From the IMG/VR virus record IMGVR_UViG_3300021962_000783, positions 1-20,881 of that record: 20,881 nucleotides of DNA; one strand, given 5' to 3'. Both the position numbers and the translations under genes were made by a program. Below are positions 695-16,898 of the stretch, piece by piece. Numbering within the stretch: the stretch's first letter is position 1; each line of letters opens with the position of its first letter. A model generated the notes under the pieces. That model searched no databases, was not told the origin of the DNA, and saw only the letters and a program-made list of their open reading frames with translations. The stretch comes from a virus.

Positions 695-3600
695 CTAGGC
701 CTGTGCTTCAGTCCAAGAAATTCTAGCAAGGATATTTGCTGCAGAAGATCCTAAGTTTGTAGCAATAACTGTTAGTACGTCTGGACCATTAGGGAACGAT
801 GGGTTTGCCTGAGATCCATTACCATTTAGAATACAGTTTGCAAGGTCTCTAACTTTCTTAGCATCGAATGATGTAACAGAGAAGTTTGTACCACCAGCGT
901 TTTCTGTATAGAAGGCAAAAATACGATCTCCACCAGTGATGGTATTTGTAGGAGATGTAACTGGGGCACCAGTACCTCTAATACCAGTTCCATCGTGGTA
1001 AATTACTTGGGCCAAGGAACCAGAACCAACTCTTACTGATTCCCACTCTGCAGGTATTGCAATACCGTTCATTGTTGCTGGATTCAAAACACCTTCAATT
1101 AGGAACTGTCCTTGAGACAATACTCCAACTGAGTCTAGTTTCATCTGCATGCGGTTTGCAAGTTCACGTTGTCCGAAGTTTCTACCTAATCCGTTATCTG
1201 CCGAAGGTGCTACTCTAATTGAAATTAAAGGACGTGGGGTTGGTGTGCTTCCGAATGTCTGAATTGCAGTACCATTAGGGTTAATTGCAGAAATTGCTTC
1301 ATCTGCACCCTGAAGAGCATAAGTAAATGATGTTGGTGCAACAGAAGTGATTAAGAACGTTCCGTTAAATCGACTTGATGCAGTAATTCTTGCAGTTGAT
1401 ACAACCGATTGGAATCCAATGTTTGCAGATACTTTACTGAATGCAATTCTAGTAGCATCTGGAACTAATGACACTGTATATGTTCCGTTAAATATTGTAT
1501 CTACGCCAGTTATCGTCACTGACTGTCCAACTGTATAGTAGTGAGGAGAGCTTGTTGTTAGATAAGCAATATTATTTGTAAGCTGCTTATATGTAACTGT
1601 TGATATATCTTGAACACCTGAAATGGTTACGTTAGTTCCTGATGCCAATGTATGTGGACCAGATGTTGTAAGTGTTGCAACATTTGATAATGCTTGACGA
1701 TTTGTTACTGTAGCTGAAATTGTTCCAGATCCACCGACCTGAAGGTACTTCTGCATACCAGCTGTAAAGATGAATGACTTATCATCATTAAACCCGCCAT
1801 CCATAATTACGGATGATCCCCAGTGTGACATAACTGGTGCACAGTTTTGAGAAATTGTTTGTACCGAAACCTGTGAGGTTCCAGAGCCGCCTGGAATTGT
1901 AGAATCTGGAACAAAGTTTACCTGAGCAGATGTTCCATAAAGATTTAGTGGGACTCCACCATAAACTAGAGGCTGTGCAACTCTTCTTACAATATTTACT
2001 GCCCATGCCTGAATTGTTGGATTATATGCTCCAACTGATGTATATTCACAAATTTCAAAGTTAGAGCCATCTGCAATTCTCAAGAATCCGTTTGATGGCC
2101 AGAAACTTACGTCATTAACATAAATTACTGTATCTTGAGGAAATAAGGTAGACCCGCTAATTCCAGATCCTCCAGAAATTAATTTTGCAGAATTTAGAGG
2201 CTCATTAATTGTCTCATATCTTGCTGGAAGGTTGCCTGATCTCATGTATGATGCAGTATTAATATTATTCATTACCATCTTATGACACCAAACAACATTA
2301 CCATCAGTTGCTCTCATACCGAATCTAATTGATCCCGCTCCGTACCATGAGTAATCGATGTATGTCATCTGCATTTTAGATATGTCAAGAGTATATCCTG
2401 AAGGACCGTCTCCTAACATTGTATCTACGTTCCATTCTGATTGAGGAACCTTTTGAATTTGTGTTTTAATGTAAGGTGAATTTACAATACTTGGCCCACG
2501 ATATGCTGGAGCAATGTTTAAAGATGTATCAGAGTTAATTTGAATAACTCTATATGATTGGCCTCTAATTACAATTAGATCTCCAACTAGAAGCTGTTTT
2601 CTAAATCGTGTCTCCACTCCAGTTATTACATTTGAGAATTGTGTAGCAGAAATTTTTCCAAATAGTTCTTTGTTTGAAAATCTTCTTACTGCATATAAAG
2701 TCTTTCCGTCATATTCAAAATAAAATCCGTTTTGATCATCATATAGACCAGCTCTTGTTGCAGAGCCTTTCCATTGATATGCTGTTACGAATGCGTTAAC
2801 TCCGCCTGGCAACTGATCAATTGCAGTAATTGCAGAAGTAAATGTTTTTTGAACTTTAATAGTATTTGAATCTGTTACTTCATTAATAACAAACAAACCA
2901 TTAAATGGATTGTATGATCCAACAGTTTCAATTCCTTCAATTTTAACTGTAGCTCCTGCCTGTAAATTGTGATCTTGTAAAAGCTTAATAGTAATTGTGT
3001 TTGATCCAATTTGAGTGCTTGATGATGCAATATAAGAAATATCAAAAGATGGTGTGAACTTTGTTCCTGTTGAGAATTGAATTGACTTACCTGACTGATA
3101 TCTAAAGTATCTGCGTGTTTGTCTTAGTGTCTGAGTTCCGCATACGTTATTTCCTGTTGTTAAAATAACTCCGCCGTCGAATGGTCTGTGCTCAACGTAT
3201 CCTTCTGGCTTACAGAAAAGACCGATTCCTAAAGTATTTACTGTTCCTACTGGAACCTGGCCTTGTGTTATAAATGAGAATGAGTTTGGTGTTGTTACCC
3301 TATCAATCAAAAAGCTACCATTAATTGCGCTTCCTGAAGGGGCAGAAATCAAAATTGGAGTTCCTGGGTAAAGTCCATGTGGGTTTGTAGTAACAACATT
3401 AATTCTTGATAGTGCTGCGCCATCTGATGTTGCTGACCAAGCGTTTAAGTTTCCAGTGTTTCCTCCTGGAATATGAGCATTGTCAAATAATCCTCCACCA
3501 TAAACATTTGTTAATACTCCATCTTGTACGCTAGTTCCTGATGCAACAACTCCCTTAGCAACATATGAGAATACTGTTGAGCTTAATACTGTAACAAGAA

Positions 3601-8107: not shown

Positions 8108-9028
8108 TTAAATTGATACAGAATCGTGAACAAGCATATGCTCTGTAAAGAATATGTCGTATGGTTCGCAGTTTATAGATATAACCTCATGTGGAATGTC
8201 TGCAACCTGAATATCTACAATTTCAACCCAATTACTATCTGCTAAATCATAAACAAGGTCTGAATAAATTACCTCTGTAGATAAAACAAATTTAGAAACA
8301 CCTTCTCTTTTTATAAAGATATAGTGTGTGTCAGAAAATACATCTCCATTAATTAAAACACCTCTTGCAGAGGTTCTTCTATTTAAACTAACAATTGTTG
8401 TTGTTGTTTCTGATACAGAAGGGTCTATTGCGGTCCAATCTAGTGCTTGTTGTGCTGTGTTTAATAAGCTGTCATACGGAAATCCCTGTATGTCTGCAGA
8501 AACTAACGTATCTCCTACTTGTAGGTCTTTAGCAGGAACCAGCCCGTTTGGCGTAATTATTAAAGTAGTTATCCCAATTGATTTTTGTGGAGGGGTAAAA
8601 TTTAAAGGTGGAATATCAATTGGTGGTGATTCTGGTGGCGCATTAAAGTATGGCGGAGCATTATCGTATGGTGGTGGGTTAGAATATGGATTGTAGTATA
8701 CGTTATCATATGGCGGCGGATTACTATATGGATTATAGTATGGATTATAATAAGGATTATAGTAAGGTGCAACATATGATCTAAAAACAAAATTTACTGT
8801 AGATCCGATTGTGACAGTTGTGCCTGCAGGAATACTTTGAGTAGAAAGAATTCCATCTAAACCAGAGTCTGATGTGCTTTCAGATGATTCAGAGTAGCTT
8901 AAACCTACATTTAATAATGCCGCTTGAGCTGCTAATCTTGAAAGGCCCGTAAGGTTAGGCACATTAACTTTTCTAGATCCAAATTTTGCTTTTTTAAGTT
9001 TTGCAACTATCTTTTTGCCTTTTGCCAT
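8108..9028 (-). CDS. PASTA - Tyr/Pro/Asn repeat - Hint domain protein
   Basis: This 306-residue protein has three parts. Residues 1-20 are Lys-rich. Residues about 21-83 form a PASTA-like domain (VPNLTGLSRLAAQAALL ... IPAGTTVTIGSTVNFVF), a fold that in other proteins binds peptidoglycan. Residues 87-140 are a repeat linker built from YYNP and a 14-residue unit, YYNPYSNPPPYDN plus one residue, present twice at 97-124. Residues about 150-302 look like a Hint (Hedgehog/intein) domain: TPNGLVPAKDLQVGDTL at 159-175, TH at 234-235, and the ending FFTEHMLVHDS. The first Hint residue aligns with Ser150 instead of Cys, the penultimate is His301, the last is Asp302 instead of Asn, and Ser303 follows. 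No signal peptide is seen. The ribosome site AGGGAGG is strong. Autoprocessing is possible but unproven. Confidence 0.75.
   Translation of the reverse strand: MAKGKKIVAKLKKAKFGSRKVNVPNLTGLSRLAAQAALLNVGLSYSESSESTSDSGLDGILSTQSIPAGTTVTIGSTVNFVFRSYVAPYYNPYYNPYYNPYSNPPPYDNVYYNPYSNPPPYDNAPPYFNAPPESPPIDIPPLNFTPPQKSIGITTLIITPNGLVPAKDLQVGDTLVSADIQGFPYDSLLNTAQQALDWTAIDPSVSETTTTIVSLNRRTSARGVLINGDVFSDTHYIFIKREGVSKFVLSTEVIYSDLVYDLADSNWVEIVDIQVADIPHEVISINCEPYDIFFTEHMLVHDSVSI
8657..8740 (-). repeat. Two 42-bp tandem repeats encoding the Tyr/Pro/Asn linker
   Basis: Two imperfect 42-bp units encode a 14-residue YYNPYSNPPPYDN-type repeat, and extra YYNP units continue to about 8764. The copies differ at several bases, mostly silent, so the peptide is conserved more than the DNA. 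Such a track can vary in copy number by slippage. Confidence 0.8.
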
Positions 9029-9412: not shown

Positions 9413-10137
9413 TAGGAATACTCCTTTTTTTGCCACTTTTCTTTTTTATAAAATCCTGAAAATAAATTCATTCTTTTTTCTTGTTCTTTTTGGCCTTCGT
9501 ACCTCAAAGATAGATTTTTTTCTGAAATCCAAGGTTCTCTTTTTATTGGAATAATTTGATATATTGGAGTTCCTTTTGATATTATACCTTCAAATCCTTC
9601 TTTTAGGTGAAAGCTTATATTTCCTGGAGAAGAGTAATGGTCTGTATCAATAATTGCAGATGGTGTTATAAACGGAAGCTCTGGTCTATTCATTGGGCTA
9701 GTTAATATACAAGACCATCCTGGTGGGGTTTTGATGCCCCACTGCATAAGCCAAGCAAAGTGTTTTGAAGAATATCCTAGCGATGTATCAATTTCATCTC
9801 GGTTTCTTACTTGAATAGGATTTAATGGGGATCTCCATTTAGCATATTGCTCACCATTTTTTATAGTTATTTGTATGTCACAATGTAGCTCTTGAATATA
9901 TCCTGCAGTCATTGCGTCAAAATACGGTATGCAGTGCTTAAGTCCAGTATTTGGAACTGCGTTTCCAGCATCGTCCTTGCCGTATAGCACAAGATCTTCT
10001 GATCCAACATATCTTGGTTTATCTTTCCAGCTTGCAGGAATATGTGATTTTGCCAATGATGGCATTTTAGAAACGTTTTCTGCTAATTCGCTCCATGAAT
10101 AGAATTCTATTTTATTAACATTTGTTTTACTTTTCAT
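9412..10137 (-). CDS. Conserved phage-type protein with a dUTPase-like motif (possibly DUF6065)
   Basis: This 241-residue protein has a layout I associate with an uncharacterised phage family, possibly DUF6065: HCIPYFDAMTAGY at 68-80, WGIKTPPGWSCILTSPMNRPE near 133-153, IIDTDHY at 162-168, and KGTPIYQIIPIKREPW at 188-203. The pair IIDTD-Y plus G-T-P-x-x-Q-x-I resembles the GVIDxDY and G-x-R-x-A-Q motifs of trimeric dUTPase/dCTP deaminase folds, but the other dUTPase motifs are not evident. The start overlaps the oxygenase stop by 4 bases (ATGA), so the two are coupled. The C-terminus is Lys/Glu-rich. Function is unknown; a nucleotide-related or sugar/fibre-related role are both open. Confidence 0.7.
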   Translation of the reverse strand: MKSKTNVNKIEFYSWSELAENVSKMPSLAKSHIPASWKDKPRYVGSEDLVLYGKDDAGNAVPNTGLKHCIPYFDAMTAGYIQELHCDIQITIKNGEQYAKWRSPLNPIQVRNRDEIDTSLGYSSKHFAWLMQWGIKTPPGWSCILTSPMNRPELPFITPSAIIDTDHYSSPGNISFHLKEGFEGIISKGTPIYQIIPIKREPWISEKNLSLRYEGQKEQEKRMNLFSGFYKKEKWQKKEYS

Positions 10138-10751
10138 TGAGGAAGCCTATCTTTATGTGACTCAAAATACGTGTAAAACATATTTACAGTATATCTGCAT
10201 CCTTCTTCTATTTTTCTTACGCCGTGTGCATGGTGCTTATCTCCTGGGAAAAAGGCTAACATTCTTTTTTTAATCTCTATTATGTGATCATGTTGTGGGA
10301 AATAAATTTGTCCGCCCTTAAAGTCATCATTTAAATAAAGAACAACTCCAATATCTCTCCAGTTCCAAATATGTGGCTCTCTACCAAAATTTTCATAGTC
10401 TGAATGAGGAGGCTGCTCTTCTCCCAGCGGCCATCTAATTAAGTTTAATGAATCTGCATAAATATCTTCTTTTAGATTCCAGGTTTCAATAATTTTTTCT
10501 CTAATTCTTTTTCTAATTGATATGCATAGATTCATTATCTCAAGATCTTTTGGATTATTAAATCCTTTTTCTGGTACGGTAAGATTTATAACGCCTAGGA
10601 ATCTTTTTGACCAGTGCTGGCTTGGATCGCTTTTAATATCACTCTTATCCCACAAATCATTATCCGTTAAATACTTTTCATAATCCAATATAGCGTTACA
10701 TTCGTCTTCTGATATAAAATCATATACAACGGTGATGTCTTCTTTTGCCAC
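10134..10751 (-). CDS. 2OG-Fe(II) oxygenase, prolyl-4-hydroxylase type
   Basis: This is a 205-residue protein. The enzyme family couples oxidation of 2-oxoglutarate to hydroxylation of a substrate, using iron. Ligands visible are H116-x-D118 (PPHSDYENFG) and a distal His in HHAHGV, most likely H176. R186 in GCRYTVNMFYTYF is the expected 2-oxoglutarate-binding Arg. The GGQIYFPQ segment and FFPGD also match the family. Length is usual for phage members. The start is a GTG 3 bases after the stop of the fibre gene; no better start is near. It overlaps the next gene by 4 bases. Substrate is unknown. Its position between fibre genes, in a phage with collagen-like proteins, makes a fibre protein a candidate (inference). 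Confidence 0.88.
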   Translation of the reverse strand: MAKEDITVVYDFISEDECNAILDYEKYLTDNDLWDKSDIKSDPSQHWSKRFLGVINLTVPEKGFNNPKDLEIMNLCISIRKRIREKIIETWNLKEDIYADSLNLIRWPLGEEQPPHSDYENFGREPHIWNWRDIGVVLYLNDDFKGGQIYFPQHDHIIEIKKRMLAFFPGDKHHAHGVRKIEEGCRYTVNMFYTYFESHKDRLPQ

Positions 10752-10754
10752 TTC

Positions 10755-12068
10755 TTATACCGCCAAGTCTCCGAGTATAACCCAACTATTTAAACCTCTT
10801 TTTAATAGCGTTGCGCTTGCCCATTGTGTACGCAATTTTAATCCTGGTGTTGCATTTGGTGTAAATCCATTTCCAGCAATTGTAACCTGAGAAGATCCTG
10901 TTTGAAGAATATCTATGGAACATCCGATAGGGAATGCTGCTGAGTCTGTTATTGTAACAGTACCCCCATCTGGCATTTCTATAATTTTATTAATGTCTTC
11001 TGGAATAGTTGTATAATTGCCAGAGACAACCTTAATCAATGTGTCGTTTTCTAATGAGCCTATGATTGCACCTTTCATGCTTGAGTGAAATTGGCAAGCA
11101 TAATATAATGAGCTTGGTCCAGATATGCTGTAATCAAAAACAATAATCCCATTATCTGTTCCACCATTTGTTATTCCTGTGCTATAAACATCGGCTTCTG
11201 AATATCCGCCAGGTACTGTTTGAATCCAAAATGGGTGCCCTACGGCGTTTATCTTAATAATATATTTTTTACCTTTTACAAAATACATGTTGCCATTTAA
11301 TACACCATTAACTATATATCCGCCAGTTCCTGAATTTGTAATAACATAATCAAATGATTGATCAGAAATATTTAACTTTAAATCTAGAGCTGCTTGTTGT
11401 GCAGTTGAAACAGGTTTACTTACATCTAGTGTGTTGTCTACGCTTCCAAGTCCGACCATTGCTTTTGTAATTCCGCTTACTGTACCAGTAAATGTTGGAT
11501 CCGCAATTGGTGCTTTAAGAGAAAGTGATGTTGTAATTGATGTTGCATAAGATGCATCATCTGCTAAGGCTGCTGCTAACTCGTCTAGAGTATTTAATGT
11601 CTCTGGTGCAGAATTAATAAGATTTGCAATTGCTGTTGAAATTTTTGAATCTGCTGCGGTTCCTGCAGCAATTACAGCTGCATCAATTGCTGCGGCTGCG
11701 GCTGAAGAAACCTCTGTATCTCTAGCTATTCCTGAAGGAATTTCTGAGTCTGGTATTTTACCATTGCTATCAAGTGTTGCAATACCATCTGCAACGCCAA
11801 CTTGCGATACTGGAACATAGCTTGCATCTGAAGTATTTCCTAGTGCAAATATTGCTGCGTCCGTATATGCTTTTGCAGAGTCAAATGCAAATGTTAGATC
11901 GCTTAAATTAGCATGAAAAAAATAAAGATCAGACCATAAAGATGTTCCGTTTCCAAATTTTATTTTACCTAAAGTTGTATCAATGCCAAGTTCGCCTTGA
12001 GCTAATGGTACTGTTGATGCAGCCCATTGTGCACTAGTGCCTCTTTTAATTCTTATCTTAGTTGCCAT
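10755..12068 (-). CDS. Tail-fibre protein with Mtd-like N-terminus and cupredoxin-like domain
   Basis: This is a 437-residue protein. Residues 1-50 (IKRGTSAQW ... LAQGELGIDTTLGKIKFGNG) match the N-terminal module of major-tropism-determinant-type fibres. Residues 64-110 and 146-184 are modules also found, in the opposite order, in the 689-residue fibre. Residues 185-232 form a PTFTGTVSG / VGLGSVDNT stalk-type module. Residues about 238-337 look like a cupredoxin: GHPFWIQTV gives H278, and YYACQFHSSM gives C325, H328 and M331, the complete type-1 copper ligand set. Residues 345-437 form a C-terminal beta domain. The gene starts with TAATG coupling to the upstream 101-residue gene. The fibre role is well supported; copper binding is predicted from motif only. 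Confidence 0.85.
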   Translation of the reverse strand: MATKIRIKRGTSAQWAASTVPLAQGELGIDTTLGKIKFGNGTSLWSDLYFFHANLSDLTFAFDSAKAYTDAAIFALGNTSDASYVPVSQVGVADGIATLDSNGKIPDSEIPSGIARDTEVSSAAAAAIDAAVIAAGTAADSKISTAIANLINSAPETLNTLDELAAALADDASYATSITTSLSLKAPIADPTFTGTVSGITKAMVGLGSVDNTLDVSKPVSTAQQAALDLKLNISDQSFDYVITNSGTGGYIVNGVLNGNMYFVKGKKYIIKINAVGHPFWIQTVPGGYSEADVYSTGITNGGTDNGIIVFDYSISGPSSLYYACQFHSSMKGAIIGSLENDTLIKVVSGNYTTIPEDINKIIEMPDGGTVTITDSAAFPIGCSIDILQTGSSQVTIAGNGFTPNATPGLKLRTQWASATLLKRGLNSWVILGDLAV

Positions 12069-14952: not shown

Positions 14953-14980
14953 ATTCTACCATACTAGGCAGATATGTCCA
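14953..14980 (-). promoter_or_regulatory. Promoter of the holin-like gene
   Basis: TGGACA (five of six bases match TTGACA) at 14980-14975, a 16-base spacer, and TAGAAT at 14958-14953 with an upstream TGG extended element. The -35 lies inside the end of nrdJ. The -10 and its TGG are identical to those of the nrdJ promoter. Confidence 0.65.
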
Positions 14981-16898
14981 CTATCTCACAATTTCCATCG
15001 GAAGTACAAGCAAGAGTGGCATTAGTTGAGGTTCCATCTTCTGTTTCATAGAATGATAAATCTTCCCACCGAATGTTGTTGGGCATTTTTGCAACAAGCG
15101 CATCATACTCTGACTTATCAACTTCTTGATATGGGGCTTGCTTATATGTGTGGTCTGAGTGTGGTAGGAATGAAATTCCTGATACCTCATCAAAATGTTT
15201 GTAAACCCAAGCGCCAACTTCCATCCATTCATCTTCCTTTACAGAAACTGTAATTGATGGCTTATGCTCACACCATGCACGTTGGTAAACTAACCATGTA
15301 TTTAAATGGTCCAACGCCGTTAAATCATTTCTGACAATTGCACCTTCTGGTGCTTTTACTGGAAATGAAAATACATAGGTGTCGTTTGGCTTCATTACGT
15401 CGTCTTCTACTGGAATCCCCACCTCTTTAAGGAAAGTAGAAATTGGATCTCCTTTAGATCCACGTACTGTGCGAATGTAATATGGTGAATGCCAAGGGTG
15501 CATTCCTGAAGATACTCCTACTAATTGAGATACTGTTCCCGAAGGCTTTACGCAAGTAATTGCGGCTGATTCTGGGATTCCAATTTTTTCAGATTCTGCT
15601 TTATTAATTTCTCTTGCCTTTTCACGCATAGACATTAAAAATGCCTCAAGTGCAATAATGTCTTCTTTGCCAGACATGAACTTGTGTCCGAACTGACCAG
15701 TTAAAGAAACTCCAAGCAACCGCTCTTCTTCTGTATTGTCTTTCCAAATTTTTCTAAGGTACTTAAAGTCTGTTAAAGTTGATTGCCAGGTGCCAAGTAT
15801 GGTGGCAAGTTCTACTTTTCTTTGAATATCCTTCTTTGTATCTTTTTCACGTAATACGACTTCTGAAAGGTTACAAAACTGATAAGGACGTAAGATAATC
15901 TCTGAGCAGGGGTTAGTTCCGTAGTGAATATCTGGATCTCTTCTGCCAAATTTAGCTGCCTGCGCTTGTGCTGCTGCAACATTATAGATTCCACGTTCTC
16001 CTGATTTAGAGTCATAAAGGTTTTTCCATTCTGCTATAAATTGCTCCATCTCTGGCTTGCGAGAATATGCAACAGAGTTATTTGAAAGTGCACGTTGTGT
16101 ATTATTTTCCCACCAGTTACCTGATTTTGCTGCGGCCATTTCAATGTCATTAATATTAGAAAGAGAAATCATTGCAGAACGTCGAACTCCACCAACTACA
16201 ACCACTTCTCCAATTTTACACATAATATCATGTGCTTCAATTGGCTTCAATTGGCGACCTGCTGCATTTTTAAACTTTGCAATTGTAAAATCAAATAAAT
16301 TAATTAATGGTTGTGGTCCAGATGATCTTCCGCCCATTGTCTTAAGACGTGCACCTGCTGGGCGTACCTTACTAACATCGATTGCTGGAATATGTCCAGT
16401 CCAAAGAAGTGCTAAAAGTTCACGATATGCTTTTGCCCAACCCTGCTTAGAATCTTCTACAACAATTACTGTATCTGACTTTTCAAATGAATCTGGGACG
16501 GCAGGAAGTTTATTAACATATTTATATTCAACAGAAAATCCAACACCTGTACCGCACATAAGGATATACATAGTTTCGTCAAATGATCTTGGATTGTCTA
16601 CTGGAACAAATGAGCAATTGTATCCTGCAACATTGTCTCTTTCTAGTGCAGCTCCAGCAGTCATTACTGATCGCATAGAGGGCATAACATTTCTTTGGAA
16701 TACACCGTCTTTTAATTCCGCTACAAGCTTCTCATCTGGAATATAATTATGGTTTTCTTTTAGATGATTTAACATAAAGTCAAAGTATCTATCTACTGTT
16801 TCTCCCCAAGTCTCACGTCGGTTTTCTTCTGGGATCCAACGTGCATATCTTGATAATGCAATAAAATTTTCATATGGGTTAGCAATAGTCTTTGACAT
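14964..16898 (-). CDS. nrdJ: Adenosylcobalamin-dependent (class II) ribonucleoside-triphosphate reductase
   Basis: This 644-residue enzyme reduces ribonucleotides to deoxyribonucleotides for phage DNA synthesis, using adenosylcobalamin to generate a thiyl radical. Visible motifs: GYNCSF with C95 (first redox Cys); NPCSEI with C331 and E333; FCNLSEV with C342, whose 11-residue spacing from C331 matches C408/C419 of the Lactobacillus enzyme; KPSGTVSQLVGVSSG at 451-465; and a C-terminal pair C631/C637 (CTSDGNC) that would re-reduce the active site. The length is shorter than the roughly 740 residues of the Lactobacillus form. It has its own promoter and no cobalamin riboswitch in the short leader. 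It is a monocistronic or two-gene unit with the holin-like gene. B12 must come from the host. Confidence 0.95.
   Translation of the reverse strand: MSKTIANPYENFIALSRYARWIPEENRRETWGETVDRYFDFMLNHLKENHNYIPDEKLVAELKDGVFQRNVMPSMRSVMTAGAALERDNVAGYNCSFVPVDNPRSFDETMYILMCGTGVGFSVEYKYVNKLPAVPDSFEKSDTVIVVEDSKQGWAKAYRELLALLWTGHIPAIDVSKVRPAGARLKTMGGRSSGPQPLINLFDFTIAKFKNAAGRQLKPIEAHDIMCKIGEVVVVGGVRRSAMISLSNINDIEMAAAKSGNWWENNTQRALSNNSVAYSRKPEMEQFIAEWKNLYDSKSGERGIYNVAAAQAQAAKFGRRDPDIHYGTNPCSEIILRPYQFCNLSEVVLREKDTKKDIQRKVELATILGTWQSTLTDFKYLRKIWKDNTEEERLLGVSLTGQFGHKFMSGKEDIIALEAFLMSMREKAREINKAESEKIGIPESAAITCVKPSGTVSQLVGVSSGMHPWHSPYYIRTVRGSKGDPISTFLKEVGIPVEDDVMKPNDTYVFSFPVKAPEGAIVRNDLTALDHLNTWLVYQRAWCEHKPSITVSVKEDEWMEVGAWVYKHFDEVSGISFLPHSDHTYKQAPYQEVDKSEYDALVAKMPNNIRWEDLSFYETEDGTSTNATLACTSDGNCEIVDISA

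Follow-up and report, generated by a model that had tools for sequence, protein, structure and literature searches.

A predicted cupredoxin domain forms a modular cassette in a phage tail fibre

Introduction

Amicyanin and plastocyanin are free secreted electron carriers of the cupredoxin fold, and rusticyanin, with a ligand loop longer than C-x2-H-x2-M, is a periplasmic electron carrier. A phage-encoded protein of this fold has been described in cyanophages, in which petE is an auxiliary metabolic gene encoding a host-derived plastocyanin as a separate short gene of 324-369 bases (PMC3037559). Phage virions carry accessory domains of another kind, the promiscuous Ig-like domains, beta-sandwiches that occur as insertions in tail and fibre proteins or as additions to them. 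A few phage fibres are known to contain a metal, iron or zinc, with a structural role. The literature searched did not describe a cupredoxin domain in any phage virion protein, although absence there is not proof.

Here we analyse a stretch of viral DNA of 20,881 nucleotides (the window; IMG/VR record IMGVR_UViG_3300021962_000783). A preliminary description, made from the sequence alone, had claimed a complete cupredoxin-like copper site inside a tail fibre. That claim held with respect to fold and ligand conservation, and copper binding is inferred. The further claim that a copper domain in a phage fibre is unusual has to be corrected, as the domain recurs widely, as a module, in the tail proteins of aquatic phages.

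Results

The fibre gene and its surroundings

The gene at 10755-12068 on the minus strand encodes a protein of 437 residues, read as a tail fibre from its open reading frame and translation, an N-terminal Mtd_N module and matches to many tail-fibre PHROGs. Mtd_N, which tail fibres commonly have at their start, occupies residues 5-43 (11940-12056, minus strand; Pfam PF18454, E 1.8e-12) and scores above the cut-off, and the PHROGs matching the shaft and the tip are annotated as tail proteins, so that the identification is well supported. Residues 122-185 (11514-11705, minus strand) form a predicted helical shaft, assigned from shaft PHROG matches and from DSSP of a low-confidence full-length model in which pLDDT is below 50 over most of the stretch. 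The cupredoxin cassette spans residues 234-343 (11040-11369, minus strand), as delimited by its presence or absence between conserved flanks in related fibres, and AlphaFold2 together with PDB matches places the eight-stranded fold core at residues 241-338 (11055-11348, minus strand). The range given in the preliminary description, residues 238-337 or thereabouts (11065-11355), was slightly too narrow. A C-terminal beta domain, the tip, follows at residues 344-437 (10758-11039, minus strand); it matches phrog_8780, a minor tail protein, best over residues 344-435, and is also present in relatives that lack the cassette. The full-length model is poor overall (pLDDT 57.9), as would be expected when a trimeric fibre is modelled as one chain, and exposure of the cupredoxin domain is therefore an assumption.

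The window probably derives from an actinophage, since its class II ribonucleotide reductase (14964-16898, minus strand) shares 66% identity with its Streptomyces phage counterparts; the phage is probably a freshwater one. The neighbourhood contains no indication of copper handling, and no constant partner gene was seen at the domain-carrying loci examined. Directly downstream of the fibre lies a 2OG-Fe(II) oxygenase gene (10134-10751, minus strand), and in P-SSM2 the piuC oxygenase is found three genes after the cupredoxin fibre. This proximity may be a coincidence, because such genes are common in these phages. Further along, the protein encoded at 8108-9028 (minus strand) contains a PASTA domain (Pfam, above cut-off) and Tyr/Pro/Asn-rich repeats, with a C-terminal part that appears Hint/intein-like by eye only.

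The ligand set and the predicted fold

Four residues make up the putative copper site. His278, the first His ligand, lies in the motif GHPFWI (11235-11237), and Cys325 (11094-11096), the second His ligand His328 (11085-11087) and the axial Met331 (11076-11078) form the ligand loop C325-QF-H328-SS-M331, all on the minus strand. These positions, given in the preliminary description, were confirmed exactly by translation. The three loop residues are conserved and align with the ligand Cys, His and Met of amicyanin. The whole fibre contains just three His and two Cys, two and one of which, respectively, belong to the motif, and the pattern H-x(35-60)-C-x2-H-x2-M arose in 3 of 200,000 shuffles of the fibre protein.

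Modelled by itself, with 21 relatives added to the input, the domain is predicted by AlphaFold2 with high confidence (pLDDT 92.5, pTM 0.84) as eight strands covering residues 236-338 approximately. The top PDB match in Foldseek is rusticyanin (E 3.4e-5); plastocyanin, AcoP and amicyanin rank next, and these too are cupredoxins, with plastocyanin and amicyanin at E <1e-3. Alignment to rusticyanin with VIA-align gives a Z score of 10.5 over 95 residues at 2.5 Å. In domain numbering, the model places H45 directly before the strand 47-50 and C92 at the end of the strand 87-92; H95 and M98 sit in the loop, with M98 before the last strand, 99-105. Such placement of ligands relative to strands matches that in solved cupredoxins. 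The model thus has the Greek-key sandwich of about eight strands and the match to solved structures that define the cupredoxin fold, as well as the layout of a type-1 site, in which the Cys ends a strand and the C-H-M loop precedes the last one. The predicted fold of residues 236-338 is very likely a genuine cupredoxin fold; a prediction other than a Greek-key cupredoxin, which would have refuted the original proposal, was not obtained.

Single-sequence searches gave nothing useful for the domain, and profiles were therefore needed. The window domain alone found no relative in the PDB and matched no copper family in Pfam at E up to 1 (PF00127 Copper-bind, PF13473 Cupredoxin_1). PF00127 is touched by seven of 35 diverse relatives, with a best E of 1e-4. 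When these 35 members were combined into a profile and compared with the PDB, nearly all matches were copper proteins, and the C, H and M of the C-x2-H-x2-M loop aligned with the amicyanin ligands. Comparison by hhalign with amicyanin and plastocyanin (E 1.5e-5) puts C, H and M in the same register; the amicyanin portion in the PDB profile alignment agrees with the amicyanin sequence used here. One PDB relative, 4hcg, was deposited with zinc bound. An Ig-like label for the domain was considered and rejected, as an Ig model (I-set) was matched by just one of the 35 members, and that weakly (E 0.06).

Conservation and joint loss of the ligands

A first scan of viral contigs yielded 65 relatives, and a profile scan at least 600 stretches, of which at least 561 were confirmed. 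The seeds of these two scans partly include the ligands and bias the conservation counts, so the scan was repeated with a ligand-free middle segment. In this ligand-blind set, H, C, H and M are all kept in 57 of 57 distinct new sequences, His278 included. Across all relatives the four ligands are kept in 218 of 226, two of the exceptions being cut sequences or partial matches. When relatives are grouped into 40 clusters below 60% identity, 35 retain HCHM, and the ligand positions rank with the best conserved ones. In an alignment of 35 sequences with a mean column identity of 44%, the invariant columns are G33, H45, Y90, C92, H95 and G100, and column M98 holds Met in 34 of the 35. The spacing from the first His to the Cys is mostly 46-47 residues in the relatives. 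Freely varying ligand positions would have counted against the original proposal, and they were not observed.

The informative exceptions have lost the site in a particular way. In copies reading QSQM, HSDM, HSNM or YNNM, the Cys and the second His are gone jointly and never singly, and in each case an intact copy is found elsewhere in the same protein. The two losses would coincide by chance with a probability of about 1e-4 (3 of 40 clusters affected), an approximate figure that assumes independent clusters. Joint loss in redundant copies is the pattern expected of relaxed selection on a metal site. Taken together, these comparisons show that the ligand set is under selection. The persistence of ligand-free copies also means that the fold does not strictly need copper.

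At the loci L335, L363, L381, L383 and L398, copies without the Cys and second His, and sometimes without the first His, occur in long proteins. The axial Met is replaced once by Gln (L107, 5885-6157) and once by Asn (L372, open reading frame at 3565). Gln is the axial ligand in stellacyanins.

A removable cassette

A search with the tip gave 537 confirmed relatives, of which 80 were kept. Among 76 distinct fibre open reading frames with the same C-terminal tip, the cupredoxin domain is present in 32 and absent from 44. In the alignment, the fibres without it pass from the conserved shaft end to the conserved tip across a clean gap of about 110 residues, and the flanks are often collinear. Some of these reading frames are cut by contig ends, which may hide their N-termini but not the stretch beside the tip. 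The cupredoxin domain is thus a modular, self-folding cassette inserted between shaft and tip, and the many sister fibres that lack it indicate that a fibre can dispense with it. The fibre of Gordonia phage Sapo, which aligns over 202-435, was considered as a carrier of a decayed cupredoxin and rejected; its sequence is different, and no GHPF or CxxHxxM was present in the stretch examined.

Distribution among phages and the gp9 connector

The domain was found in hundreds of aquatic viral contigs. Searching with the window sequence retrieved 27 phage records, and searching with a bridging member retrieved 358 of 50,697, nearly all of them marine cyanophages; by name, 274 are Synechococcus phages, 54 cyanophages, 21 Prochlorococcus phages and five marine phages, with two Pelagibacter phages, one Actinomycetia phage and one uncultured phage making up the remainder. 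A Prochlorococcus podovirus and a Pelagibacter phage carry the domain with its ligands intact. Its usual place in T4-like cyanophages is the C-terminus of gp9, the baseplate wedge tail-fibre connector. Elsewhere it occurs in many unrelated tail and collagen-like proteins, at the C-termini of large structural proteins and in short, nearly stand-alone proteins from about 135 residues upward, sometimes twice in one chain. In BFVD, fibres and connectors of cyanophages match at a TM of about 0.8. Giant viruses give weaker matches; there, the same fold is matched by proteins called beta-sandwich protein (A0A481Z6J5 and others) in relatives of Pithovirus and Marseillevirus. Seven bacterial or archaeal contigs carry relatives (L070-L076), whose proteins appear secreted or lipoprotein-like by eye and have intact ligands. 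It is possible that such cellular proteins are the source of the module.

The C-terminal 100 residues of the gp9 connector family phrog_677 represent the same domain as that of the window fibre (E 2.3e-13), and the ligands are kept in every gp9 relative examined in full, as they are in the window. The position within the protein differs. In gp9, for example that of P-SSM4, the domain follows the T4 gp9/10 N-terminal domain, whereas in the window fibre it lies between Mtd_N and shaft on one side and the C-terminal tip on the other. The window fibre is not itself a gp9, as it matches positions 217-407 of the 412 in phrog_677 only, sharing the C-terminal domain and not the whole length.

In the Synechococcus phage S-SCSM2R (PQ898602.1; L319, 388-894), the gene for XQU50115.1 is annotated as PetE. 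The protein matches phrog_677 with an E of 1.7e-39; its matches to Pfam copper models all fall short of the cut-offs, and it has an N-terminus like that of a phage structural protein (L143). We consider XQU50115.1 likely to be a gp9-connector-like virion protein with a cupredoxin domain and not a plastocyanin. Phage genes called plastocyanin by similarity may accordingly be virion parts and not photosynthesis genes, and some petE calls may need checking.

Discussion

Our data show that the type-1 ligand set in the fibre is complete, with His278, Cys325, His328 and Met331 arranged around a short, amicyanin-like loop. That the site binds copper is an inference, supported by neither spectroscopy nor metal content, and we regard copper binding in the virion as likely. 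In the reading we prefer, the cupredoxin cassette serves on the virion surface as an accessory or adhesion module stabilised by metal; to this reading as a whole we give a probability of roughly 0.6. Within it, the choice of a stabilising or adhesive role over a redox one is also inferred, and there we would not argue strongly for either side. Earlier suggestions that the domain stabilises the fibre or senses copper at the host surface remain inference, as does copper occupancy.

In the preferred reading, the fibre would be made in its apo form in a copper-poor cytoplasm and would pick up copper after lysis. Free copper is very scarce in the cytoplasm where phage proteins fold, and apo-cupredoxins are known to fold, so that loading after lysis would be the simplest route. 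The bound metal would then lock and stiffen an accessory beta-sandwich whose exposure is assumed, and the stiffened module may help the virion to make or keep contact with host surfaces, in the way that Ig-like modules do on other phages.

Several other explanations can be considered. The copper site could be redox-active during infection, exchanging electrons with a partner at the host surface or in the periplasm, or with the redox change of its copper acting as an attachment switch. In favour of this, selection has kept the full type-1 ligand set including the Met, a residue that tunes the potential but is dispensable for copper binding itself, and the single replacement of Met by Gln (L107) recalls stellacyanin. 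However, electron transfer usually needs a dedicated partner, and the hosts of the carriers differ greatly in their envelopes (cyanobacteria, Pelagibacter and probable actinobacteria). The many unrelated structural contexts and the lack of any constant partner gene at the loci examined lead us to favour an accessory surface module over dedicated electron transfer, and we consider the redox explanation unlikely. A plain beta-sandwich spacer or a sugar-binding module, in which the ligands bind zinc or nothing and copper is irrelevant, would be compatible with the free loss of cassettes, with ligand-free copies that retain the fold signature and with the zinc in 4hcg. It does not explain, however, why H, C, H and M belong to the best conserved positions or why the Cys and His are lost together, and it too seems unlikely.

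Still less probable is a protective chore, in which the domain scavenges copper or reactive oxygen near virion or host and shields the particle in sunlit water. That the domain, within the phage collection, is nearly limited to phages with aquatic bacterial hosts would fit such a role, but the neighbourhood gives no hint of copper handling, and the aquatic bias may stem from host range and sampling. A chance motif in an ordinary fibre domain, for which the empty single-sequence PDB and Pfam searches could be cited, is all but excluded, because relatives conserve the site and the fold is predicted; the profile matches and the rarity of the pattern among shuffles also speak against it.

Besides the accessory-module reading that we prefer, we cannot exclude redox switching, a receptor role or a copper-bridged host contact. 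A bolder version is possible, though we do not think it likely, in which aquatic phages share a mobile copper module across fibres, baseplates and other tail proteins, and many virions of seas and lakes are copper metalloparticles whose copper is involved in adsorption, through redox switching or through a copper bridge to the host surface. Should copper be bound, a large share of the particles of marine cyanophages and freshwater phages would be copper proteins, with consequences for adsorption, for trace-metal accounting and for how virions survive in sunlit water. The copper question can be tested now, as cultured cyanophages that carry the domain exist (P-SSM4 and S-SM1).

The fold and the site are already known; what is new, as far as the literature searched goes, is a blue-copper domain, with copper binding inferred, as a mobile virion module. 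The window domain has the cupredoxin fold and the H, C, H, M ligand order in common with amicyanin and plastocyanin, at an identity of about 13-16% in structural alignments, and its family shares the ligand loop Y-x-C-x2-H-x2-M-x-G with amicyanin. The stretch from the first His to the Cys is 39 residues in amicyanin, shorter than in the phage domain. Rusticyanin is its closest structural match by both Foldseek and VIA-align. In contrast to the free carriers amicyanin and plastocyanin, the window domain is a cassette inside a virion protein. Cyanophage PetE is likewise a phage-encoded copper-protein fold, but it is meant for host photosynthesis (PMC3037559), whereas the window domain belongs to a virion protein. 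In its promiscuity as a beta-sandwich, the cupredoxin cassette is reminiscent of the phage Ig-like accessory domains, which, however, have no conserved metal site.
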